Shown: positions 4,101 to 49,755 of the stretch, one piece after another
How positions within the stretch are numbered: the stretch's first letter is position 1
How the letters are laid out: every line of letters starts with the position of its first letter
Assembly: GCF_905475395.1 (NCBI RefSeq)
Contig: NC_058341.1
Span: 60,023,501-60,087,500 of the forward strand
Length of the DNA stretch: 64,000 nt
Direction: 5' to 3'
From: Chrysoperla carnea
Lineage: Eukaryota > Arthropoda > Insecta > Neuroptera > Chrysopidae
Made by a program: the position numbers and the translations under genes
Notes under the pieces: generated by a model
Databases searched by the model: none
Seen by the model: only the letters and a program-made list of their open reading frames with translations
Told to the model about the DNA's origin: nothing

Positions 4101-7100
4101 ACTTTTGTAGAAATTAAAAAATATTCCATGGTATACAGAACGAGCCATATCAGAAATAACTTTGGGCGGTTTACTTATTCTAGTTGTAATACGAACAATA
4201 CAATATAATATGTTAAAAATGCGCGATAAATATTTACATACAAATTGTTTAGCTGCATTAGCTAATATGTCTGGACAATTTCGTTGGCTACATCCATATG
4301 TTGCACAACGTTTAGTCTCATTATTTGAAACACTAGCAAAAAAACATTCACGGCTTAGTAATTATGTTAAAGAAAAGAAGCAAAGAGAGGCAAACATTTC
4401 TGATTCTAGTATTGTTGATATTGAAAATAATGGAACTGCGTCTGATACCAGTGATTGGAATGAATCGGTAATATATTTTATTTTTGTTTATTTATATAAT
4501 TAGAAATCTAAGAGATGTTATAAAATCGACCTTCACTCATCTGATAACTAGAAATTTTGTTGATAGAAAAGTGTTCATGGCTATTTTTAATTATGGCTAT
4601 TTACAGGCAAGCATACACCATTATTTTCGTAATTAAATTATCTTTCTTCTGATACCAATTTCGATTGGTTAACAGATGGTTGTAAATTTGTTTATAAGGT
4701 ATGAACAGGCTAGTCAATACAGGTATCTGTTAACCAATCGAAATTGGCATCAGAAGAAAGATAATTTAATTAAGAAAATAATGGTATAAACTTGCCTGCA
4801 AAAACCTATTATAAAAAAAAAATTGTTTAAAATTAATTTAATTAAAAATAACCATGAATATTCTAGGATATAGCACGTAAAAAATCCGTGAACCCTAACT
4901 TTCTGTTGTGTAGTAAATAAGCTCCTGATTCTTTGTGGAACCTAGAATCCTCAGGGTTCATGGTTATCCTAGAATAGAACACTTTTAGATAGAAAGACTA
5001 TGATAGGAGTCTTAAAAATCGTATAACATGGGATGGGTGAAGATCGACCTTATACTGTCTCTTATACTAATAGAACTAAAATATTGTAATTTTTGTTAAA
5101 TTTTCGAAAGTTCTTTTCTCCGTGTATATAATAATGGTTTTGCAAATTTGCATCCCTAATCTTCAGTCTACTCAGCCTGCTGATAAATCAGCCACTGGCA
5201 CCCACTTTAAAAAGAAATAAACTGTGGGGTCACCCTATACATTTTTTAAAAAATGTTGAAAATCTTCATGAAATAATCCCATCTTTCCGAGTGGAGAGGG
5301 CGATTAATAGTTAAATTCTGTAAAATTGACCATTAAGGTAAATAAGGCTTTGAGAAAAATTCAATAATTATTTGCTATATTACCACCAAAGATATTATTT
5401 AGATGTAACAAATTATATTTATTTAATCGTCGAAGTCCTTCTAATCAAAAATCAAAGAGTGAGAACCAAAAAATCCGTGATATAAACAAGACCAAAAACC
5501 ATTCAATTAGGATTTAACTCGACTCGACTGCTTTAATTCATTTTCATACAAAAAATGATAAGACATTTTCAGCATATTTCATCTAGTTCTCATACTTTTC
5601 GTCATATTTATTCACAAGTTCTAACACAATTTGTCGCTCACCAAATCATATTCCTAACTCGTGATGTTTCAGAGTGCTTTATCGCTATTGGTAAATGGTT
5701 ACGTCTAAAAAAAACCTCTGAAAACCTTATCTTTGGAAAATGAGATAATTTTCTATAAAAATTACCAAATTATCAAAACTTATTAAGTGGCTTCTATCTC
5801 TTAGGAGTAAGCAATTCAGGAAACTCGAAAAAGGTAGTTAGTAAATTTTCAAAAAACAATTACAGAAGGAAGATACGAAAAAAATTTTTTTTTGGAGTTT
5901 TTCCCATTTTTTTTTTTTCCAATTTAATTTCAAAAATAAAGTATTTAGAAATATAACATGAATGAAAGGGGACACTTAAAAATAATTTGTTATTTGTATC
6001 TAGGTGCAAGATATTGTTGTACTAGAAGAAGTATTACGTGTTGTGCTTGAAATATTAAATTCAACATTATGTAATCAACTAGTGAATAATCCAAATTTAG
6101 TATATACATTATTATATAAAAAACATATATTTGAGCCGTTTCGTAATAATATTGCATTTCAAGATGTCCTACAAAATATTGATTTTGTATTAAAATATTT
6201 TACACAAAAATTGGATAGTGTTAGTCAAACGCAAGATCTAGACGTTAAGGAAGTATTAAATGTTATTACAAAAGGAGCACAAACGTGGCCTAAGGACAAA
6301 TTAAAGGTATGTTATACTTTGTATTTTTTAACAAAAAAATTATTCCCCCACAGAACCCACAAAAAAATATTTAGCTAAATTTATAAATAATTATTATTAT
6401 TGTGGACCCTGAAGGGGATATATATTCAACCAAAGTATTAAAGGAACTTTTTTTATACTCTGTATTCGCTTCGAGTGTGACTGCAGCGCCACACAAAACA
6501 TGAACTACGGGAGGCTGTCAGAGTATGTTTTTATATGTATGCCTATAGCAAGAGACAAAAATATAAATAAATATTATATGTAATAATAAAAAAAATTTAC
6601 AAAAAAATATGTGACAATTTTACAGTGATTGTGTCATTTTTTTCACTAGTTAAATGAACCAAAAACAAGTAAGTGTAATGCTAGAAAATAAAAAATGTAG
6701 TAAACAGTAGGTTAAGTTGCTTAAATTTATGTCAAAGTCTAAAAATAATACTAAAATTTAAATTGAAAATTTAATATTATTGTTTCACAAATTTAAATAA
6801 ATAATTATGATAATTTACATTTGAAAAATAATATTTGTTCAATTTAATTTCTTATTTTCACAATTTTTAATGCATTAAGTTTAATTAATTAGTGTTTTTC
6901 AATAATTTTAATTTGACATTTTCTATAAAATTAACATGTAAAGAATTGCAAATTAGTCATAACAGCCTCCTTTAACTCCAAAATTGTTCACTGGTAGCGC
7001 TGGCATCGATTTTATTGTCCCTACCATGACTACGCACATAACGAATATATGAAATGTATACCTATCAATGTATACTAATTTTATTCCCAAGTTTGTAACG

Positions 7101-28100: not shown

Positions 28101-31100
28101 AATTTTGTTTTAAATTTTATTTTTTAAAATCATAAATACTGGAAGATATTTTATATTTTTTATATTACGGCTTTATCTCTTCACTTAATTCAGCAATGTA
28201 AAAAATCTTAATAATTGTTTTTGAATTTTAGTTTTTTATGGTAATTAAGAACCTACAATTATTGATAGCAAACGCATCTTTATTTATAAAGAAGGAGCAT
28301 TATCGCGTAAAAAATCTACTAAAAAATAAAGTTAAAATTCTACTAAAGGCCAATTAATCTTTTACGTAAATATAAATTTACATTGAAATTGAAGCTACAC
28401 TGGAATCTCGATAATTCGAACGTTATTTCGAGTTAATGAGTTTTCGACTTAACAAGTAGTTCGAGATACAGATGATTTAATTGCTAAAATTTCTACTTAG
28501 AAAGGCGCAATTATATTTTACCAACTAAGACTTACGGAGTTTACTTTTTAAAATTCCAAACAGTATAAATATGTACATCAAAACCTCACAGGGAAATAAC
28601 ATTTTGTACGAATTACAAAGTCTACATAATTCGAGGAGGGACCAGAGGGACCAAAAATACTTACTACATGACACTTTTAAGCCAAAGAAGCATTTCAAAT
28701 AATTTCGGGGTACATATTCCCACTGCTGGAGCCTTCTATCTCTTATGATGAGATTAAGTTGGCTGAATGTTTCTCGGGGCCCTATAAACACGTTTCAAAT
28801 AGTTTCATTAATATAAGTTCTTTCCCAGTTTTTCCATTATCGACACTTCCGGCATATTCATTGTATTATAAGTAAATTCGAATAAAATATAATTATAAAT
28901 TCTAAACATTGGCCTATTTTTGGTCCGAATTTTAGGAGCCCTTTTTTAATATAAACCTTTAAAAGTTTTTTAAAAGATTTTTTTTTTTGTTCTTTTATTA
29001 CTGTTATTTTGTGTTAAAGTTTTTTTGCACCTTTTATTCAAAAATAATGTTTTTTCTAAAAAGTTTCTATTCAAGTCGAAATATTTTTAAATTAAAAAAT
29101 CATCCAATTATAAAATATTATATATTTTCCATGTGTATAAACACTGCGGGTACACATGTTGTGTTGTAAAATAATTAAGAGTGCATTGAATTTTGGTTTA
29201 AAAAAAATAATAATGTTATTATTAGATATCGCGTGAAAGATAATAATTCCGATAAAAAAATACTCCAGCATTGTATGATAAAATAAATAAGTTTTGTTTA
29301 TTGTTGATTTATTAATATAAAAATATTATGTTATGGTTAAAGGTTCAAATGGCTTCTATTACACAACAACAAACAGTTAGTGGGACAGGCCCACAAATTA
29401 GTACAACATCGAGACGTTTAAAGGTAGAAGATGCGTTATCATATTTGGATAAAGTTAAATATAAATTTGGTGATCAACCACAAGTGTACAATGATTTTTT
29501 GGATATTATGAAAGAATTTAAATCAGAAAGGTATGTACTTGAATTATTATTTTGTTAGGAATAAATATGCATTATTTTTTGGAATCTCTTTAATTTTAAT
29601 AATTGTAAAATTATATTATTTAATAAGCAGATCCACGTGGAATAGCAAGTCATTTAATACTTGCTAAAAATTTGTAAATTAATTCTACGTTAGTTAATGA
29701 TTAATCAAAAAATTAAAGAAACAGTAGGTTTCCTGGAATTTTAATGAAATAATTAGTTTATAAAATTTGAATTTGTACATGTAAGAAAATGGGGATCAAT
29801 CCTTTTTTTTGGTTATGAATTCAATATGAACAATTGTAAAAAGACTTTCTTCTTAACCCCCGAACCAAAAAAAAGGGATGTTATAAGTTTAACCGCTTTG
29901 TCTGTGTGTGGCATTGTAGCGCCTAAACGGATGAACCCATTTTGATTTTTTTGTTTCGTTTGAAAAGTAATATAACGGGGAGTGTTCTTAGCTACGTTTC
30001 AAGTGCGAGTTTATTGTTCCGTACCTGGAACGACTAAAAAATAGGCATTGATCTTCAAAATCAGTTCAGTTTGGAGATGGTTCTAAAGAAAAAGGTAATT
30101 TAATGGAGAGAGTTTTTAGGATGTTTCAAGTGTGAGTTTATTATTCCGTACCCGAAAAATTTCTTGGGGGTTTTTTAAATTTTGTAAATTTCATTTGTTG
30201 TTCACTATGATTGAAAAAATAATCAGCTTTCGATTAAAACAATAAAAAAAAGAGGATAAATTTTTTTTATGAAAAGGATCTCATCGATCACATGGTACTT
30301 CGATAATCGGCAACATTGCAAATGATTATTCAAAATAATTTATAATATATTTTTCTTAAACAAATGATAAGAAATAAAAGTAATTTTTTAAATTCTTGGT
30401 ACTTGGATTTCCTTAAAATTTAAAAACTAGCTATTCATGTATGTGCCCATATTAACCACACTAGTATTTCCAGTTCAAAAAACATCAAAATAAAAAATAT
30501 TAGATTTTCAAAAAATTGTTTAGATAGAAAGAAGTGTATATTTTATTTTCTACAAAAAGTCTTACGCATCCACTCTCAGAGGGACAATCGACCTACTTGG
30601 AAAGGCAAAGAAATTTTGACAATCTGAAAATGTCACAAAATAATCTGGGAATATAAGCCTCGTCATAAGAGATTGTAATCTCTAGATCTGATTATCAATT
30701 TTGACTACACAAGCTTGGTTTTTTGGTTTCTTACCAGGGTATACAACTTCCGTCAAGGGTTTTTTTGCTACAATCATGGAATGATCAGGGAATTTCATAC
30801 TTGCGTATGACAGAACAACATATTACTGGAAATCACTACATCAACTAAAAACTGGAAATGCCAGAGAATTCAAATTCTACTGGAAAAGTCAGAGAATTTT
30901 ATTAGTTTCGTATAAAAAAGTGGCGCATGATGTGTTTGTAATATATTTAATATTACGATTTTCTCTGTTCGTTATTTGTAAAATTTGTGTTCCACTTTCT
31001 TTCAAAGCAATTTAAAAGTTATAATTTGATCACGGAATTTTTGAATAATTCAACTGGAAAAGCCTGGGGATTTTGTTTTAAAAAACAGTGGTCTTCAAAT

Positions 31101-34100
31101 TTTGCCATATGTATTCAATAGATAAGACATAATAAAAAAATTAAAAATAAAGTTTTCAGTCCCGAAGCAGAAAAGTAGAAAATGAGGCACCTGGTTCTGT
31201 CATAATCTTACTATATCATGACTATAACTAAATATTTATTAAAATTAAAAAACTAAAGATACGCAGCTGTTTGTGGTTTTACCTGTTTCCTGTTTGATAA
31301 TTTCAGGTTGCATAACCAGGAATAAAATTCTTATTTTAAAATTGTTTTTATTTGTTACAGTATCGACACACCCGGTGTAATAACACGAGTGTCAACACTA
31401 TTTAATGGACACCCAGAATTAATTGAAGGATTTAATACATTCCTTCCACCTGGATATAAAATTGAAGTGAAACCAAGTAAACAAGGGAATGCATATCAGG
31501 TAATTAAATTTTATTTCTTATTTTTATTTTTAATTTGCACTAGTTTCCAACTTGTATTTAACTGATTTGATAGTTGTACAAGTAACCAATGGTGCAAAGA
31601 GCATGGATTCAATAAAAAGTGAGATAAAATTGTATTGATAAATTTTGTTTCGTACCATTTTGAAACATGATTAGAAATACGAATTATTATTTCATTCAAA
31701 AAGTTTAAAACATTGAAGGAGAGTGATTTATTTACGGAACAATAAAATATTAATTCGAAACAGAATTCAATCATCCTAAACAATCAAATAAAATAAGACA
31801 CGTCTAAGAATTTAAAATACATGTACAGTGCAATTTAAATTATTTGAAATAACAAGTCATATTCTAAGTGAAAATTTTACTGTAAATCGGCGATCTTTAT
31901 GAAGAGTGTAAACCGTGGATTATTCCTAGTAATCCAATCACGAATAGCAATTTCTGTAAAATTCTTACGAAGAGTAAAACTATTCATAGATTTCTCATGA
32001 CGACTAACACAACCTGTCGATTTCTTACGAATACTGGTATAACTTTATAAGTAATTGTTTAACTTCTGAAGTAGTAAATTTTTAACACGAACCTTTTTCA
32101 TCTTACAGTGTTGAAATTTGAATAAATATTTTATGTGCTACTTAGGCAAAATAGCTGATAACTTAGGCTAAATTACAACCAAAGATAACCAAAGGGCTCG
32201 AGATTTGGCCTAATGTATGTCAAGAAGTTTTTGAAAAAAATCTTCAAACTATTTTACATAAACTTTTTCCTAAATACATTAGATTTTCATATTAGCGGCA
32301 CCTAGTTCATGAATGGCGAAGCAATGGCACACGGCACATTATTTTGGGCACGCCACTGATCACAAATTTTCTATGAAGTTTTATATTACGAACGAACGCG
32401 AGTGATCCAACGAACGCGTGCTCGTTTGTTATTGTTGTTACATTGTGGACTTCAATTGCCATTTTGAAATAAATCACAAATCCGTTAGTCATAAAAACAA
32501 GTCAAAGCAAAAGAAATTAATTGCAAGTTCAATGAAAGAGAATAAACAATCAACGTCTATGATTACAAAAATTGCTTTACGAGAGCGGCAGATTACGCGA
32601 CTGAAAATGTCATTGCTCGTCATAATAAAGTAAACCTTTTCAAAAGGATGAGTTTTAACTTCTAGCATTTCCCAACTAAGAGAGTCAGGCGGTTAAATAA
32701 CTGCAGAGAATTTAACGGGTTAATTTCCAATAAAACTCTTATAATTTTGTCCTATCTGTTCGTTTTAATTTTTAAAATTTTTACAGCTTCCCCTTAAGTG
32801 AATATTGCACTAGATGGAATGTAATCCCCAAAAGAAGTTACAAATTCACAACATGTATTGTGCAAATGGCAAGACATTGAATTCTGAAGATAAAATCTCT
32901 TAAAAAATCTCACCTAATATTGGCTTAAATGGGAAAAATAAAGAAAATTTGATCTATTTTACAAATTTTCAGTTAAATATCTTTGTTTTCTTTTAAAAAA
33001 CGTAATATTTTTAAAGCTGTTGCTAAATATACTAATTTTATATATTTTATATTCTAGGTGTCTGTTAGTATTCCATCACCTACGCAAAGTACAGCTACTG
33101 TTGTGCATACCCAACAAGGTATTGCAAAGAGTGGTTTAGCATCACCACCGATGAACACCACACAAATACAAAACAGTAGTAGCCATCCAACCGGCGGTGG
33201 TAACACCAAACAAGGTGGTCAGCTAATGCAAATCGTACCAAGTTCAACAATCATACACACAACAATACCATCAAATTTGACGTCAGTGTCAGGCGGAGGT
33301 GCTGGTAATCCATCATCTACACATTCACAAGGTGGTGCTATAGCCGCGGCAGCTGTAACAACTCCATTACCTCAACAAATACATCAATCGGTTTCAGCTG
33401 GTGCAACTTTACCACAAACCAGCCCTGTACATTTATCGACATCAACACCAGTGAATATGCATCATGCAGCATCATATCAATCGAATGTGAATTCGACAGC
33501 ATCGTCCAATGTACCAAGCAATGTATCACATAGCAATAATAATGTGCATCATATTACACAGGTATGGATTTCATCTTAAGGGTTTATTGTATGTTTTTGG
33601 TTGTATGTATTAGTAGATTTTTAATCTTTGGGATAATTTTAAGAAAATGTTGAGAATTGGTGTACAGTTTGAACTTCGTTAACCTCTTAAGAATTAATTT
33701 GAATCCAATAAATGAGAATGTAGCATTATAAACGGTTTTCAGAGAGTATATTCCAGATTTATTGATCAACAAATTAGAGAATCAATGTTAAATAAGTCAA
33801 TAAAATATTTACTATAAAACTATACATACATGTGGCTATAGGTTTGGGATGTATGATGTTTGTTTAATGTCATTTATGAATGGGGATGTTGTGATGCATA
33901 TTATAATTTATAACATTACAAGCAGATTATTTTCGAAACACACACTTTCACATCCTGAAGTGAGGAACTTATTGTACCAGTAGCGTGAAATTATTGTGTT
34001 TATCAAAATAATTCCTTTAACAAGTAAATAAATCATAGTAAACGTTTTAACTTTATATCAAAATTTTCTATTTTCTCAGAAATAAATGTACGATGTACGT

Positions 34101-37100
34101 AGACTATTGTACATCGTACGTTGGCAGGAAATTATCGTTTATATACGATAATTATCGTACGGTTCCGAACCCTGCACAGACTGCGGAATACCTCACTATT
34201 TATTTTTATTTCTTTATTAAGCAATATATAGTTAATATAGTAAATAATATGTAACATTGATTCCGTATTAGCAATTATTTATAACACAATATGTAAGATA
34301 CGCTTTTTACTAGTTTTTGTAAGTAATATTAATCCCAACAATACTTTTTATAAAAAAACATCTACTGCTCAAATCATTCTTAACATAAGCGCAAGTCACT
34401 GATAAGACAAAGGTTTTTGAACCTTTTATTAAGGTTTTGAACCCCTTTAGTGATAATTGATTGGTATAAACTTATTTAGTTAGCTTTTTGAAATTTTGAA
34501 CAAGTATTTTTTTAAAAAAAAGTTCGAAGTTTTATTGGAGCAGTAAATATTAGGTTGTTTTGAAAATTTTGTCCGTTTCTATGAGTCTACTTTAAAATGA
34601 AATATCTCAGTGAATACTTATTTAATCGAAATAAGCGCCATTTGAATCATTGTATTTATGCTTACTTAACACACGTCGTATAATTCCTTCGGCATAAAAA
34701 TTAGGTGCTCCTGATTCGATGAAGTCAACGAAGGTCGTTTTTGCCTGATCTTGATTGGCGAAGGTTCTACTGGTGAGAAAGTTATGCTTAAAAGATGGTA
34801 ATCGGTTGGCTAGAGGTCTGGAAAAATAATGGTAGAGACTTCGACACTGAATTTGTTTAATTTTCGGATGGTGATTTGTGAAACGGTTGTTATCGTGAAA
34901 TAGTATCGGACCTCTTCGTTTGACCAGTTCTGGCTGCTGCTAACTCAATTTTGGGTACATTACGTCGGTTTCCTCACAATAGGACTTATAAAATAAGTAA
35001 ACGGTAAAAGCAACGGCACAGGTTTCCTTGTACTATTAATTACTTAAATAATTAATAGCTAACGGAAAGATGTGTCCGTTACAGACTCTGTTATGATGGT
35101 TTGGCTCGGTTAGTGAAAATTCTAGTGTACCCACTTTTCGAGCTTTTTTTACTTTTCCAAAAATGAACAGCATCAAGTAAAAAATTCTCCATCGAAACAG
35201 TATATACCACGACACAATGGAATAAATATTTATTTAGATATGGAGCTTCAAAAACACATGACATTAAAATGAACAAAACTTTTGAAACAACATCATCATT
35301 ATCAAAATTCGCGAATATGAATCTTTGTTTTAGAGCTATAAAATTCGTTTGATACTTAAACTTGGTCAAACAGAAATAAAGTAAAAAATTAAAATGTTCA
35401 TTTCTATAAACAAATTTGAATTTATAAAATACTCCAATTATTATAGATTTTTTGTAAATTTAACTTCTTATAATTGCTATAAATAATAAAAAAAAAAAAA
35501 AAAAATTCGCTAAAAAAGTAATAAATACGAATCTTACATTTACGGTAGATATCTGTAGATATGGATCATCACACTAATAAAAACACAACCCGTCAACAAA
35601 ACTTTAGAATTACTTCAGTAAAATGTGACTCAAATATAATGATTTTAAGTATAATTAATTTTGGACCTTTGTTGATGTAAAAAATAAACTCTCTCTTTCT
35701 CGAGATATTTGATCAAACTTCCAAGATGCTATTCTCCTATTTATTTCAATCCATAATATGCGCCCTTCTTTTCCTGAATCGCTAATTGTTTGGTCAAAAA
35801 TAAAGTATATTGCATGGACCTATATTTGTTTACATCTTTTGAATTAGGTTATGTTAATTTGGTGGCAAATCGTTATTTAAATTTTGTTTTATTTTCGTTT
35901 ACTCGAATGCATTATTTTGAACTTATAAAGTTAGAAGTTAAACCAAACAATTTGTTTACGTATAACATTTTTACAATAAATTTTACTTTTTATCAAATTG
36001 TAACAGTTGAAGAAAGAACTTTCCCCTATTAGAATTTAAAAAAGAAGGGATAAAAAAATGACGATGGTGTGTTTAAATTTTCAGACCCAAGCTGTATGTC
36101 AAGTATTATCACAAGTGGATCAAACTAGTCATACAAATCCACAAAATCAACGTGTTGAATTCAATCATGCAATCAATTATGTGAATAAAATAAAAAATCG
36201 TTTTCAAAGTCAACCAGATCGGTATAAAAAATTTTTAGAAATATTACACACGTATCAAAAAGAGCAACGTATCATGAAAGAATCGAATAACACAACCTCA
36301 TCGTTAATTAATTCAACTGGTGGAACAAACAATAATATATCGAATATTACATCTGGGGCTGGTATCCAGACATCGTTAAATAATAACGATTCAATGTTAA
36401 ATGTTTGTGGTGGTGGGGTTAATGTTACAACGTCATCGTCACAGCAATCTGGTGGAATGATTGGTGGTAAACATTTAACAGAGGCTGAAGTCTATAGTCA
36501 AGTTGCTAAATTATTTGAGAATCAAGAGGATTTATTAGCGGAATTTGGACAATTTTTACCGGATGCAACTAGTAGTTTGGTATGTTTAGTTGATTTTACT
36601 GTTATTGTATTTAGATGTATTGTCTCTCTTGAAATTACTGAAAAATGTAAATATTCAAAAATTTTTAACTCGCTTTATAATAATATGAACTTTTTTACAG
36701 CAAGATATTATTACATCCTTATCTTAAATTCTTATTTTTCACTTATTTATCATGCTCATTTGAAAACGCAGCACTGAAGAAAGCAGCTTAGAATTTAGGG
36801 TGTAAAGCGGCTTTTAATACCGATATTTAATTTGTTTGATGTTTATTTTTATTATTTGCTCTTTAAAATTTTTGTTGCGATATTGAGAAATATTTTGGAA
36901 CCGAAATTTGCGAGAGAACCGTGGTATAATGTGTTGAAAAATTTGTTTTACATTTTTCGAATCGGATATAATTTTCTCGGCTTTGACGTGTTTACTGAAT
37001 TAATTTCATGATTTCATCATAAAACGAAAAGTCATGATTTTAGAAAATATTAATTTTCTACATTTTAGAAGGGTATGCCAGTCGAAAGTATGAAAGTGGA

Positions 37101-40100
37101 TATTGTCAATCCCTCAAAAAATATTGGGATAAGATCTGCGAATGATCAAACAAAATTGAGAACATGAAAATTGGTACAGACATTTTTCGCTTTATTATTT
37201 ATCTACTTGGTTCAATCGCAAATTTCTCATCATTTTAGTTAAAACTGGAATAATTTTCAGTCCGCTTCAAGCCGAAGCAATACCAGGAGGCATCCAAATT
37301 CGTTACCATCTTATGGTCTATTATGCACTATTTTGAACTTTACAAATAAATTTTAATAATTCGTAAAGCCAAGCAATAGTGCAAAATAAATTTAAACAAT
37401 TTAAAGTGAAATAATTTTTTATTCGATAAATTTTATTTTTCATCAAATTGTTACATTAAAAAAACTGATTAAACTATTTTCACTGTAATTTAAATAAAAT
37501 TATTGGAAATATTTTAAAAAAAATTTAATTAATCAATTTTTCTTTACAGTCAAACAAAACATTATCAACAAACGATACACATATTGTAAAAAAGCCATTA
37601 ATAAAACCATCGTACAACAATTCAATGCGTGAACGTGAACGAGAACGTGAAAATCGTGAACGTGAGCATCGAGATCGAGAACATCGTGAACGTGGTAGTG
37701 ATCACCGTAGCGATACACTTGATCATCGCGATCGTGACCATCGAGATCGAGAACGTGATCGAGATCGTGGTGATCACAGAGTTGATCGTGGCGGAGGTAG
37801 TGATCGTGATCGTAGTAGTAATAGTTTAACATCCACACAAAAATATGGACATACAAGTGGACAAATCAAACGTTCACCACCATATATATCATCCTCATCT
37901 CAAGGTGGTGCTACCGGGGGCGGTATGTCATCACATCGTGATGGACCTCCATTAAAGAAACATAAAATTCCATGCTTACGTGATGTTAGTTTAGCTGAAG
38001 CTGGTAAATATGGAACATTACACGATTATGCGTTCTTCGATAAAGTGCGTAAAGCGTTACGTTCGCAAGAAGTGTATGATAATTTTTTACGTTGCCTAGT
38101 TTTATATAACGAAGAAGTGATATCACGTAGTGAGTTAGTACAATTATCCGGTCCATTTTTGGGTAAATTCCCTGAACTATTTAAATGGTTTAAAGATTTT
38201 ATTGGTCATAGCGATAGTGGTGGCGTTGAGCCAATACCAAACAATGTGGCACGCCAAGAGCGACCTCAAGGCGATAACGCATTAGAAGTTGACTTAACCA
38301 CATGTAAACGTTTAGGTGCAAGTTATTGTGCGCTACCGAAACCACATACGGATACATACAGTACTACATTATCATCTTCAGCCGTTCTACCAGGTGCAGG
38401 GGGAGTACATCATAATCTAAGTAGTTTACAAGGTTCACGAAGATGTTCTGGTCGGACACAACTATGTCGTGAAGTATTAAATGATACCTGGGTATCATTC
38501 CCTACATGGTCTGAGGATAGTACATTTGTTACGAATCGTAAAACACAATTTGAAGAGTATATTTATCGTTGCGAAGATGAAAGATTTGAATTGGATGTTG
38601 TTATTGAAACAAATGCATCAACAATACGTGTATTAGAAGGTGTATGGCGTCGTATTCAAAGATTTAGTGCTGATGAGTTAGCACGATTCCGTTTAGATGA
38701 TACATTAGGTGGTACCAGTGCTGTGCTACATCAGCGTGCGCTACGACGAATTTATGGTGATAAAGCAGCTGATATTGTTGATGGATTGAAACGAAATCCT
38801 GGTGTTGCTGTACAAGTAGTTTTAAGGCGGTTACGTGCAAAAGAAGAAGAATGGAGAGAGGCGCAAAAGGTTTGTGAATAATTCTATTAAAGTTTTGGAC
38901 ATGTTTTTTCAAACAAAATTTTATTTTTCCAGAGTTTTAATAAAATATGGCGTGAACAAAATGAAAAGTTTTATTTAAAATCGTTAGATCATCAAGGTAT
39001 TAATTTTAAGCAGAATGATGTAAAATCGTTGCGCTCAAAGAGTTTATTTAATGAGATTGAAACTCTGTACGATGAAGTAAGTTTAAAAATATTATACAAT
39101 TCTATCTTTATTGAGAACTGACAATAAATGTGTAGTTTGGGAATATAGCAAATTTTAAGCTGCAATCTTCATTTTAGCATCCTGCAGTATTTTTACCTTA
39201 AATTATGTATACTCATTCGATTTTAACGCTAAGATGTCAGCGCCACGAGTAAATATAAAATGTAAACCATACCTGCTAAACTCTTGCTGATTTTTTCATT
39301 GAATGAAAAGGCAAAAGATACCTACTTCATTTTAATGTGCTGTGTCATATTTCCTCCGTTAGTCTTTTATAATTGCGATAATCTTTCTACTTTTTTACAT
39401 TACTCGTAGTTTTGTTAGTACATACATTTTTGCATACAAATTTAGGACCTTAAATTTTATACTTTTTTGTTTTTGATTTACTTTTTGAGCTTTTAATTTT
39501 TAGATGGTTTTAGGTTAAGTTTTCATTCACATTTTTAATTTTAAATTTTATAGTTGTGTGTGAAATTTTTATTTCCTGACTACAATTTGGAAATTTATGA
39601 AAACTTTTAACATTCTAAGTGATATAGCTATAACATTATATGTGAATTACATGTACTGTTATAGTTATAATACAATGGTTCAAATTTTGTGTTTAATTTG
39701 ACTTAGTTTGTGCATTGTCACGTTACAACAATACTTAAGCGATATAATGACTAAAATTAAAATAAAAACAAGTGAAAAGAAACAATTGACTGAGTTAATT
39801 GTTGAAATACCATGCATAGTCAGTGTTGATTTCTTTATCACATAACACATACAAAAATGTATAGACAGTGTTGATGCGCAATTGTTTGTTTTTTGACGTC
39901 ACGTAAATAACAAAAGATATTCACTTTTAAATAGGCAACACACAATTCCTATATTAATACACTAGCTGGGAACTACCCGCTTTGCTGGGCAACATCCCCA
40001 CTTGCACCCCTCCCTCCACATTTCCTTGCGTTGGATAACAGTTTTGTAATGTACACGTCATGCTCTTTTATTTGATACCCCACTTAGGTATATTTGTAAA

Positions 40101-43100
40101 TATTCGATATTTCCTTCCCACTTTCTCGCTACACCTTTCTACCCTGCGAAGGTTAAAAAAATTTCTAAATGTAATTTAAAACATTCTGACCAAGTTTTGA
40201 ACTATTAAAAGCCACAATTGAAAAATGTGAATTTTTTATTCATGAACACCCCCGCAACCCCCCTTGTGGGTGGAATTTCGTAAAATCCGTTCTTAGCTGA
40301 CCTCTATTTGGCAAAAGGAATATTCCTCCCAAATTTCAAGTCTCTAGGTCTTATAGTTCCAGAGATATCGTGATGAGTGACTATCTATCTATATCTATAG
40401 AAAGTCTCCTATATATATAAGATACTATAAAATTTGCATCTAATTAACGCTCTCGTGGGTAAACAGTGATGTTTACAAAAAAATGTTTCAAACAAAAGTT
40501 TTTTATTTTTTTATAAGGAACATTTTTTACATTTAAACTTTTGATCTATCTCTAACGGTTTACAAGATGGGTCCTACGGACCCAAGACCGAATTGACCTA
40601 TAATGCTCATTTACGAACTTGACCTCACTTTTTACGTCCTGAGTACGCTGTAAAAATTTCAGCTCGATATCTTTTTTCGTTTTTGAGTTATCGTGACCAC
40701 AGACGGACGGCCGGACGGACGGACAACCGGAAATGGACTAATTAGGTGATTTTATGAACACCTATGACAAAATTTTTTTCCTAGCATCATTATTTTTAAG
40801 CGTTACAAACTTGGGACTAAACTTAATATACTATGTATATTTCATATATGCATGGTATAACAATTATTTTAATGTTTTATATAATTCTTTAATACAATTT
40901 TTGTTGCCAAAATTATGGTATTCTTTCATTATGTATGGTTTACAAGATTGTAAACATTTCCGTTCAATATTATGTTTCTATGGAAGCTGACACCTATAGT
41001 TCTTTTTCTATCGCTAGAGTCTTTCTAAGTATTAAAATCCAATAGTATAGCTAGCTCTATGGGGCTTTGGTGGAAAATATTCTAGGATTTTTAATTTCCA
41101 TTTTTACAACTAATGCACTATTTTGAACTTTACAAATAAATTTCCTTAATTTGTAAAGCCAAGCAATAGTGCGAAATAAAAACAATTTAAAGTGAAATAA
41201 TATTTTTTTCAATAAATTTTATTTTTCATCAAATTGTAACACTAACAAATTAATAAAAAGAAAAATTAAGTTATTTTTGAAATTAACGTTTTTTTGAAAT
41301 GAATATATAATTTATTACATTATTACGTGAAACACGGAACATATGATTTATTTAAAGTATGCTTTTATGTCTTGATAAACAAAAATTATGCTATATTTCA
41401 CTTTCCCGCCGATATAAATTTTAAACATCGGATGTTTTGATCAAATATAGTCAGTTCTCAATACTGAACAGAAATATAGAATGTTAAAGTTAACGAAACA
41501 ATTATTTTAGCGACATGAACAACATGAAGAAGGTGCCACATCAGCATCAATTGGTTCAGCGCCTCCAAGTGGACCACATTTAATATTATCGTATGCAGCA
41601 CACCTAACACCAAATAGTTCAATACCAGCAAATCCAGTAATATCTGGTAATAATTTAGCAACACATCGTCTTGGACCAATTGAACGGAGTGTATTAGATG
41701 ATGCCGCTGGTTTATTGATACATCATGTACGAAGACAAACTGGTATACAAAAACAGGAGAAAGCAAGAATCAAGGCATTGTTGAAACAATTTATTCCAGA
41801 CTTATTTCATCATCCACGACAGCAACTTAGTGACGATGAACGGGATGATGATGGTAAGTTTTTTAAATTAATAAACAATTATCGCCATATTATATCCTTG
41901 ATTCTCTTAAGAAAACCATTTGTTTGTATTTATTAAAAATTAATTTGTTTTGTCGTAGATGATCGTGATGATATGGATGTAGAATCAAATTCCCGATCGA
42001 GTCCAAGTAATATCGCTGAAACAAAATCAAATTCAAAATCTTCCAGTAACAGTCCACGAGATACATCGAGAAAAACACCGCCAAACGATTCCACAGAAGA
42101 TACAAAAGTAATACCAATGGATATTGATGTGAAAAAAGAAATTGATATGGATGATATAACCATTAAAACCGAAGATGATGGTACAGGAGTTAATAAATTT
42201 GAAGAAGATCCGGTAAGTAATCTAAGTAAAATGCTAATAAAAAATTTCGACGGAATTCGTCGAAAAAACAGGGACACGTATTTGAGGAGTATTAATAATG
42301 TTTTTGTTTTTATAGGATGAATATTACACCTTATTCATGGCAAATAATCATTGGTATTTATTTTTACGGTTACATGCTGTATTGTGCTCACGTTTAGCAA
42401 CAATGCACGCGCACGCACAACGTTTAATTGCACAGGAACGTGATGAGCGTTCAAGACGTAAACAATCAACAGCTGTTGCGCTCAAATTAAAACCACAACC
42501 AGAATATGAAGTTGAACAATATTATCCAGCGTTCCTTGATATGGTCAAAAATGTTTTAGATGGTAATATGGATTCAAATGCGTATGAGGATACCTTAAGA
42601 GAAATGTTTGGAATTCATGCGTATATTGCATTTACTCTTGATAAGGTTTGTTTTATTTTTTTTTCAATTTTCAAACGAAAAAGTTGTTCTATTAAGATTT
42701 TTTTTTAACATCTTAGATTCTATGAAGATTTGAGGTTCTTATTTCTCAAAATAATAGAAAACATTTTAAGATGTCTGTCTTTTGTTTATAAATTAAATGC
42801 ACTATTTTGAACTTTACAAATAAATTTTAATAATTCGTAAAGCCAAGCAATAGTGCAAAATAAATTTAAACAATTTAAAGTGAAATAATATTTTTACAAT
42901 AAACTTTATTTTTCATCAAATTGTTACATAATAACTGGAAGTACAACAGATTTTTGCAAATATTGATGACCGACGAGGCCTTTTATTTACACTGTCGGGT
43001 GCCGTTAATAACCCGAGATCCATGAAACGCCATTGTATACCCAAAAAAATGACTATTCGGACCAAAACGCAGCAAAAAGGGCACATTTTCTTTTGACTAA

Positions 43101-46100
43101 TAGAGGCGGCCACTTGAGATTGATGTTGTATTCAAAAACTAGTCCAAATAAATTATTAAAAAAAACTGGATGAATCGTCTAAAATTTTTGCATCACCAAG
43201 TATGCACTCGGTTCAATCTTCAAGTAGGCAAATGGCCTTCGCATATTGTTTTTTTTTATGTAACGAAAACAATAATTTTCGACTTTTATATTATTTTTGA
43301 CCGGTAATGGTGAAAATATCTTGAAAATGACGCCACATTCATTAAAATTGATGTATTAAGGAAGCAAAAATAAATAAATAAAATAAAAAAACACCTTGAC
43401 AAACAATATTGTTGATAAAGTTAATAATTATTGTTTTACGCTGGGATCTTTTTTAATCGTTGCAAACTTTCTGTTCATCTATAAATTTGGTTATAAAAAT
43501 TAAACCAAACTTGTGTTTTTGAAATTATTATAATATTAATATAATATTTTCTTTTATGTTTGATTAGGTTGTATCGTATGCTGTTCGACAACTTCAACAT
43601 TGCGCTACTGAACGTGGTGCAATTGAATGTTGTAACATGTTTTTAAATGAACGTCGTAAAGCACATGCCAGTTATAATGCAAACAATAGTCGTAAAGAAT
43701 CACTACGTGATAAAGATTTCTTCCGTAATTTAAGTAAAGATTGTTATAGTTTATTACGCACAAATAATAGTTTACGTTCTGCTAGTGCTACTGATCAATT
43801 TACAAACTGTTATGCGAGTGGTGCTGGTGGTCCATGTGCGACAGCACTAAGACGTAAACCTGCCGAAATTGCATATCAACGTGCTGCCGAAGCTAAATTA
43901 CGTGATGAAAATTGCTTCAAGATTTATATTGTAAGTTTTCTTTTAATATATTTTTATTTTATAAAGATATTGTCACACACACTAAAAGAATTATGAAATT
44001 CAAAATAATTTGCTGGGAATAATAGAACGTTATTAAATTGAGCCTAATGTTTCCGATAAAAGAGCAGTTTTTTTAATAAAATATTGTTGAGAGGAAAATT
44101 ATTTAATAAATGTAAAAAATATCACAATAACAACTAAATTTTAAGAAATAAGTCTCTTTTTATGTTAACTCAGGGTTTTTAATAAAACTTCTGGAAATGC
44201 ACTATTTTGAACTTTACAAATTCCATAATTTGTGAAGCCAAGCAATAGTGCTAAATAAACACAATTTAAAGTGAAATAAAATTTTTACAATGGATTTTAT
44301 TTTTCATCAAATTGTAACAATAATTAATTCGATTGCTTGAATATTTTTTGTTTTTCAACAAGTCGTCATTTTACTTCAAGAATTTCTTTCCACCTTCACT
44401 AATTCAATTTTGCTTCTTCCACTCTACGTTTTATTTGGAAATTAAAATTAAAAGATAGATATCTTCATACTTGTCATAAATTTGCTTTCAACTTGAAAGC
44501 AAAAGGCGGAATTCACAGATAATATTTGACTTGAACCCATCTTTCGTTTTTTAACCAAAAAATTTACTAACCCGTCAGCACTATCGTCAATCTTTCGGTA
44601 ATCTTTAGTTTCGTGATGAGAGATTTTCTCATGCGTTCTGTCTGTTTCTCTAAATCATAACCTCTACATAATTTTATATTAAGTTTTTTAATGCACTACC
44701 TAATTAAAAATAGTTAAATTACGTGATTATTGAATGATGTTTGAGAGTGTAAATATTAGAGCAGCGAAATAATTAAATTCATTTCAACTAATTTCACCAT
44801 CTTTCTATCACAAGTTTTTTTAATTTACTGAATACAACTTATATTAAACTAACAAAAGTTCAAGAACAGTCTCGAAAATATGTTAATATTTTTTTGCTTA
44901 CATCTTTACTCTCGTGACCAGAAAAATTCTCACAATTTCTGAAAGACTTGCAAAAATATAAAAAAACTGTAGATAATTTGAAAAAATCTGAAAAATTTAT
45001 AATTCAAATAGAAGAAATTATATGAAGATAGAAAAAGTTTCAACCAAATATACTATTTGAAAAATAAAAGTTATTTATGTCTTAAATCCAGCTTGAGCTC
45101 ATAACGTGAGAGTTGGCGCGGGTTAATTCTATTAAAACAAAAAATTCTCCCCACGGACAATAATTTCATTCAACTGTTATTCATTATAATCGTTCAATAA
45201 AATCGTAAAAGTTTAACGATAAAAAATAAACTTCACAAAAAAAATTCGTCATTTTGATTAAATAATCAGTCTTCTTTTTATTATGTCACAAAGTCCTAAT
45301 TGTGTCTTTATGGTGATATAAAAATATCATGAAATTTTTTTCAAAGGTTGAGTTTTAACCCCCCTTTTTTTTCTATCATCTTTTTTTACTAGCTAGCATC
45401 GATTTTAGCATCATATGAAGAAAACGTATCCTAACTATTAAAATAATTTAAATTAAAAAAATTCCAAATGGTCCACCTAGGTGAAGAATACCCCTAGAAT
45501 ACGAACACAAATTTTTAGGGCCATTCAATCTCCCTCTTATCAACCTGCTTTTTACCTGAAGAGGTACCAAAAGCCCAGAATTATTTCTGAAGGACAATCA
45601 ATGAAATATGATTTTCTTTGTGTGATAATTTCTTATACTTTGAATAAAAAGAATTTTAAAAAATTGTTGTAAAATCATTTTAAAATTAAATGCGTCATAA
45701 TTGTTATTTAATTAATGTTTTTTGTTACAGTATAAAAATAATTTACGTGTGACAATTGAACTATTAGATACGGACTCGGATGAACCAGATTCACAAAGTG
45801 CACTATCTGAAGCACAAAAACGATCAAATTATATTGAACGATTTGCCAATGACAGTATTTCAACTGGTACAAGTGGAGTTGGTTCAAGTGGAGTTTCTAG
45901 TGGTGGTGTGAGTGATGGAAAATCAAATAGATTGAGTGATAGTGGTATTATTGGTCAAGATACAAACAATACAAATAAAAATAATACATTAAGTGATAAT
46001 AAAAACAATAATAATACTAGTGTTGTAAATAAAGATACAGGATGTACTAGTAGCAGTGTTAGTGAGAAAGGGACAAGAAAACGTTTTGATAGAAACAGGG

Positions 46101-49100: not shown

Positions 49101-49755
49101 AAATTTTAATTAGGAATTTAACCATAAGTAACCATGAGAAAGCGATTGAGTTGAGAAAAATGAAGATTTTGAATATAAAATTGATATCCAAAAGCCGCAA
49201 GTATGTGCGTAAATTATAAATGCTATATACTTTACCGCGCTAAAACTTAAACCTTTATACACGGAGCCAAAGTTTCAACCAATAACATTACATAATTAAT
49301 TTTGATTGAAGTAAGTTTTCAAATTCAAATATTTCGTGAAAGTTTGAAATTTACTGAGAAAAATAGTTTTTCACTATTTTAGGACATAAAAATCTTGACT
49401 GTAAAAAATGGCTTGCATATATCAATTTTTGCATTCAAATCGAGATTTTTTTCTAATTTTGATTAGGGCGGCTAATTAATGAGATCTTTTTTCAAAATTA
49501 AATACTTATTATTCAGAAGATTCTGTTAACAATGATTTCAACTATCATCAAAAAGTTAGAAGCAAAAAATTGTCTCTTTACTCTATAAACAGAATTTTTA
49601 ATTTGAATCGAAAAATTTTGTTACGGCCACTTATTCAATTACTGCTAATTTCTAGTCGGCCAAATACTCAATTTAAAAAAAAATACGTTGTTCGTGATTA
49701 GTTTTTAGATGTAAAAAACGTATGTCCGTTATAGAGTGTTGTTTTTTTGTTGTTT

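Follow-up and report, generated by a model that had tools for sequence, protein, structure and literature searches.

Four similar sequences of 122-132 nucleotides (nt) lie on one strand, one apiece, in introns 7, 9, 12 and 13 of the SIN3 gene of Chrysoperla carnea, and the question that this locus raises is whether they are a dispersed repeat or genes for guide RNAs. The window in which they were studied is a stretch of 64,000 nt (contig NC_058341.1, positions 60,023,501 to 60,087,500 of the forward strand), and all window positions are counted from its first letter. From their sequence, fold, conservation pattern, genome copy number and guide complementarity, we read them (copies 1-4) as intron-encoded box H/ACA small nucleolar RNA (snoRNA) genes, predicted to guide the pseudouridylation of 18S ribosomal RNA (rRNA) at U35 and, most likely, at U539; we give this reading a probability of roughly 0.93. 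An earlier note, made from the letters of the DNA, had described the four as one family in these introns. All four were located and our own exon reading agrees with the placement, but the count was incomplete, two copies at 31536-31667 and 35908-36005 having been overlooked.

The four copies, and the guide and box elements of the first of them, are as follows.

37324..37455, plus strand: copy 1, 132 nt, SIN3 intron 7 (sequence, fold, covariance model)
41114..41241, plus strand: copy 2, 128 nt, SIN3 intron 9 (sequence, fold, covariance model)
42798..42928, plus strand: copy 3, 131 nt, SIN3 intron 12 (sequence, fold, covariance model)
44198..44319, plus strand: copy 4, 122 nt, SIN3 intron 13 (sequence, fold, covariance model, SNORA50 alignment)
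37331..37336, plus strand: copy 1, 5' pocket, left guide UUUUGA, pairing with 18S UCAAAG (one G-U)
37370..37375, plus strand: copy 1, 5' pocket, right guide CAAGCA, pairing with 18S UGCUUG; box H follows 14 nt on
37384..37389, plus strand: copy 1, box H AAAUAA (ANANNA), from sequence
37400..37408, plus strand: copy 1, 3' pocket, left guide UUUAAAGUG, pairing with 18S CACUUUAAA
37439..37443, plus strand: copy 1, 3' pocket, right guide UUCAU, pairing with 18S AUGAG (one G-U); ACA follows 14 nt on
37453..37455, plus strand: copy 1, box ACA, from sequence

Copies 1-4 have the layout of H/ACA RNAs, each folding into a hairpin, a hinge with box H (AAAUAA), a second hairpin and a tail with ACA. Any two copies show 4-13 differences at aligned positions and, in addition, 1-10 gap columns, while the AAATAA hinge, both pockets and the terminal ACA are without variation. 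In H/ACA RNAs about 14-16 nt separate the internal pocket from box H or ACA; here both distances are 14 nt in 4/4 copies, and the spacing and the invariance reported in the earlier note are both borne out. Variable columns number 1/86 in stems, pockets and boxes vs 24/46 in loops, hinge and ends (Fisher p 1.2e-12, a somewhat generous value because the rows compared also supplied the fold that defines the column classes), and the sole variable column of the first class changes U-A to U-G. None of 200 dinucleotide shuffles reached the fold energy of copies 1, 2, 3, 4 or 6, the last being a relative described below. A scan of the whole window for the layout (hairpin, box H, hairpin, ACA), both strands included, with length and energy limits chosen after the copies were known, gave 20 matches and ranked copy 4 first, copy 6 second, copy 2 fourth, copy 1 sixth and copy 3 seventh; the top minus-strand match (-19.7 kcal/mol) ranks under all five. 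The same scan also matches 40806-40956 and 32201-32364, in introns that already hold a member.

Guide targets were explored first on foreign eukaryotic ribosomal DNA (rDNA), in records titled as bacteria, and then on the 18S gene of this genome, which is 2156 nt long and carries A+T-rich insertions (L047:164-2319); of 28S, the search covered the first 436 bases, beyond which lies a run of exactly 5000 N (L047:4501-9500). With a fixed 14-nt register, the 5' pocket of copies 1-4 has a single fitting site, U35 (UGCUUG-U-C-UCAAAG, 6+6 pairs), which 0/1000 shuffled guide pairs equal anywhere in 18S and 5.8S. This is a good prediction, and it is strengthened because the H/ACA family SNORA50 carries the same guide letters. 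The 3' pocket is predicted to select U539 (AUGAG-U-A-CACUUUAAA, 5+9 pairs; 4/1000 shuffles equal), the top of four sites with at least three pairs in both arms (24.5 vs 14.5 for the next). Alternative readings of the pockets were discarded: with both sides of the 5' pocket displaced by one base, the best target was poor (13/300 shuffles equal), an error that the SNORA50 alignment corrected, and other registers of the 3' pocket were unproductive (89/300 and 27/300 shuffles equal). As for the foreign material, 15 public records titled bacteria or archaea (L005-L019) contain a word from the 5' end of eukaryotic 18S, and 5/5 of those tested have a match to eukaryotic small-subunit rRNA and look contaminated; 18S words searched in viral contigs found no match.

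Further members were sought with a covariance model built from copies 1-4, whose unfiltered scan of the whole window gave 53 matches at E up to 10. Directly after copies 1-4 comes 31536-31667 on the plus strand (46.5 bits, E 4.9e-7), followed by the antisense of copy 1's own 5' stem (37301-37383, minus strand, E 1.6e-4), 35908-36005 on the plus strand (28.9 bits, E 0.0017) and copies 2 and 3 read in antisense (E 0.004 and 0.006), the remainder lying at E of at least 0.03. Among this remainder is a weak match at 49418-49502 on the minus strand (22.6 bits, E 0.032). Two members are thereby added.

31536..31667, plus strand: copy 6, diverged H/ACA paralogue, 132 nt, SIN3 intron 5 (model, fold, layout scan)
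35908..36005, plus strand: copy 5, decayed copy, SIN3 intron 6 (BLAST, model)

Copy 6 starts 36 nt past the 5' splice site, has AGAGCA as box H and ACA at 31665-31667, and is a single match genome-wide (559 Mb in 337 contigs). Folded apart, copies 4 and 6 have 21/41 column pairs in common, where 300 mononucleotide shuffles of copy 6 gave 0.17 on average and 8 at most; six of the 21 differ in letters with pairing kept, one of them changed on both sides. It belongs to the same paralogous lineage as copies 1-4. At 14 nt its 3' pocket fits U903 (GGUACG-U-U-UACUUU, 6+6 pairs; 2/1000 shuffles equal), a good prediction from the letters of guide and target; with a 16-nt register it also fits U539 (5+6 pairs) as second best. 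Three registers were tried for this pocket on the foreign rDNA, with 10, 16 and 5 of 300 shuffles being equal, and there the 14-nt register was not the best. The evidence for copy 5 is mainly a BLAST match of copy 4 within the window (43 bases, E 1.4e-10), because the antisense artefact scores above it in the model scan. It retains the first 17 and approximately the last 44 bases, with the 3' splice site 79 nt downstream. Since its middle is lost and its fold is no better than chance (no stable fold; 146/200 shuffles fold equally well), copy 5 is a pseudogene.

The targets were challenged with a free-register control, comprising 15 combinations of register (12-16 nt) and left-guide end over 18S, 5.8S and the covered part of 28S, under which U35, U539 and U903 stay best, each at 14 nt. 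Several results nonetheless weigh against the snoRNA reading or its details. Shuffles equal the best score in 5/150 cases for U35, in 1/150 for U903 and in 16/150 for U539, where the runner-up U274 reaches 24.0; the 5' pocket of copy 6 is without a convincing site (none at 14 nt, and 64/150 shuffles equal with free register); the first three bases of the 3' left guide of copy 1 double as lower stem; and no pair changed on both sides was found among copies 1-4. Furthermore, no Rfam family matches at its gathering threshold anywhere in the window. The earlier note had proposed a covariance search of each copy: nothing came out at gathering, but below it the best of 4227 Rfam families for each of copies 1, 2, 3 and 4 is SNORA50 (RF00407, H/ACA), on the right strand and beginning one base upstream of the copy, at 25.3-29.8 bits, where gathering requires 90 (E 0.055-0.53 when 13 kb are scanned). 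Copy 6 matches best, below threshold, a plastid group II intron domain (25.6 bits against a cut-off of 43), with no H/ACA family among its listed sub-threshold matches. Bipartite complementarity to rRNA around a uridine, which marks guides of this class, is found in the family at U35 and, in copy 6, at U903, with less certainty at U539 and not for the 5' pocket of copy 6.

These points bear most on the 3' pocket. The alternative that survives best accepts the H/ACA class and the 5' pocket and places the 3' target elsewhere, in 28S, in a small nuclear RNA (snRNA) or at another position of 18S, U539 being a chance match of A+T-rich guides. The share of free-register shuffles that do as well as U539, the nearness of U274 and the coverage of own 28S in its first 436 bases alone speak for it, whereas the wide lead of U539 at 14 nt and the two 3' guide strands unchanged across four copies speak for U539. 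The free-register control raised our estimate of this alternative, which we still consider unlikely, and lowered that of the re-aiming proposed below; because of its shuffles and of U274, U539 is the softer call, a prediction that is likely rather than secure.

It is far less probable that the copies derive from snoRNAs and modify nothing, acting as structured elements in SIN3 splicing or persisting as redundant copies in decay. Intronic snoRNAs are reported to be able to affect host splicing (PMC10324135), and one copy of this family, copy 5, is plainly decayed. Against this, both pockets are letter-identical in four copies while the loops drift, a pattern that argues for guiding rather than for structure alone. 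As guide genes, copies 1-4 would act in the usual order, and we infer their transcription, processing, ribonucleoprotein (RNP) assembly and modifying activity: after splicing, the snoRNAs would be freed from the SIN3 introns and associate with the dyskerin (NOP60B) complex, U35 would become pseudouridine in 18S held by the 5' pocket, and the 3' pocket would most likely do likewise for U539. In copy 6, the 3' pocket would combine the retained AAAGUG with a new right guide, CGUACC, the best fit of which is U903.

The question of a repeat was settled by counting. Searched with 181 bases around copy 1, the whole genome gives four matching places, which are copies 1-4; their 15-base core GCCAAGCAANAGTGC occurs four times forward and never in reverse, again as copies 1-4, and the same core written backwards occurs 0 times in either direction. 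The covariance model, with default filters, had no match in the 144 kb sampled across 16 further contigs (20 stretches fetched, four excluded, three with N and one short), and the same run recovers copies 5 and 6 in the window DNA (L020). A dispersed miniature inverted-repeat transposable element (MITE) or short interspersed nuclear element (SINE) sitting by chance four times in SIN3, for which one could cite the inverted-repeat stems and the homology that ends at or close to the element edges, can be dismissed almost entirely, unless most copies are missing from the assembly, because the core is confined to one locus and one strand, and also in view of that empty sample of other contigs, of terminal direct repeats of just 0-5 nt in the six members (264/3000 random placements reach at least 5) and of conserved parts that are the guides and boxes. 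Many dispersed copies, both orientations and target-site duplications were not found, and the outcome that the earlier note had named as refuting a snoRNA family, hundreds of genome-wide copies in both orientations, did not appear.

The host was identified through its exon translations, which match Pfam Sin3_corepress (E 1.4e-33), PAH and Sin3a_C, the last of these, in the last SIN3 exon, slightly below the Pfam cut-off; 8/9 stretches submitted got a match, two of the eight being Dymeclin. By exon reading, SIN3 spans roughly 24.6-54.0 kb of the window, with GT...AG splice sites, and its introns are numbered with the first three exons assigned by eye.

29343..43930, plus strand: SIN3 exons 4-13 and their introns, the host stretch (exon reading, Pfam)
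31500-33057, plus strand: SIN3 intron 5, hosting a member (exon reading)
33562-36084, plus strand: SIN3 intron 6, hosting a member (exon reading)
36580-37549, plus strand: SIN3 intron 7, hosting a member (exon reading)
39077-41510, plus strand: SIN3 intron 9, hosting a member (exon reading)
42646-43567, plus strand: SIN3 intron 12, hosting a member (exon reading)
from 43931, plus strand: SIN3 intron 13, hosting a member (exon reading)

Between 31.5 and 45.7 kb, six long introns (922-2523 nt) have exactly one family member apiece, and three short ones (63-105 nt) are all empty; the long intron that precedes this stretch (29531-31360) has no member. If six copies are placed randomly by length into the six long introns, the probability that all fall in different ones is ~0.01, a value to be read with the fact that the stretch was picked post hoc, with the copies already known; that of a common strand is 0.03. 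Fold, 14-nt spacing, conservation, copy number and 18S complementarity together support the earlier proposal that SIN3 is an H/ACA snoRNA host gene. A narrow literature search found no account of SIN3 in this role, which makes for a weak absence. Exons of a Dymeclin gene (PF09742) lie upstream of SIN3, at 4111-6378.

As to their origin, copies 1-4 are paralogues, and their homology, compared with 1000-base flanks on each side, extends past the RNA by 1-3 bases upstream and 0-10 bases downstream. Either these are old duplications of which only the RNA was retained, or the RNA alone was copied, by conversion or an RNA-mediated route; the terminal direct repeats described above are as in random placements and give no support to retroposition. 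Copy 6 has the left guide AAAGUG of its 3' pocket in common with copies 1-4 and a different right guide (CGUACC vs UUCAU), and the predicted sites U539 and U903 both contain ACUUU. From this one pair of paralogues, the common half-guide and the common word suggest that copy 6 was re-aimed by a change in half a pocket, and its residual fit to U539 is as expected of a half-way state. More broadly, we tentatively propose, as an idea that we would not yet favour over its negation, that SIN3 is, in this insect lineage, a birth-and-death nursery of 18S guides, with six long introns in a row holding one copy each, one dead, four letter-perfect and one re-aimed.

The kind of family is ordinary and well supported by its sequences; what is new is this member of the kind, including one copy that may have moved target. 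It adds an insect H/ACA family unseen by Rfam, with targets predicted from the rRNA of the species itself, a probable counterpart of the 18S-34 guide function known in vertebrates and yeast, and a host gene, SIN3, that encodes a chromatin regulator. Copy 6 offers a concrete case of how guide RNAs may gain new sites, and the nursery proposal, if true, would provide a stepwise, testable route for H/ACA target change.

Among known systems, the closest is SNORA50. In the alignment, the 5' pocket letters UUUGAA ... GCCAAGCAA are common to SNORA50 and copies 1-4, with CUUUGA in SNORA50 where the left guide of copy 1 is UUUUGA. In chicken, GGgACA3, a homologue of ACA50/ACA62/snR44 in CNOT1 intron 16, is assigned to 18S-34 through a 6+6 5' pocket and to 18S-105 through its 3' pocket (PMC2653536), and human 18S pseudouridine 34 is mentioned elsewhere (PMC10227372). 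U35 of this species is taken to be vertebrate position 34, and by their 5' pocket letters copies 1-4 would then have the same target as SNORA50/ACA50, ACA62 and yeast snR44. The differences lie in the 3' half, which does not align and for which U539 is predicted here rather than 18S-105, in the host (SIN3, not CNOT1) and in the number of copies, four vs one in the chicken table. 18S-105 is absent from the best three sites for the 3' pocket of copies 1-4, in fixed or free register. Despite the SNORA50-like 5' pocket, scores of 25-30 bits vs 90 led us not to file copies 1-4 as members of that family, and a further diverged guide for the SNORA50-type site may exist elsewhere in the genome.

For the 3' pocket the nearest relation may be in the fly. 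U539 may correspond to fly 18S position 525. Compared by site number and by a printed 12 nt, U539 may be the target site of the Drosophila snoRNA:Psi18S-525 family, whose guides are multi-copy, members f and k being named in PMC9149858; the last letters of the 12 nt of Psi18S-525f, UAAAG, are by inspection complementary to the same CUUUA. The arrangement in SIN3, finally, resembles the intragenic cis-duplicated snoRNAs of vertebrates, such as chicken GGgACA4 with three copies in PABPC4 introns: paralogues lie in separate introns of one host, and some are said to acquire new targets (PMC2653536). Host and lineage are different, and in SIN3 the homology hardly extends beyond the RNA, so that the copied unit, or the age of the copies, may differ from that of the vertebrate cis-duplicates.

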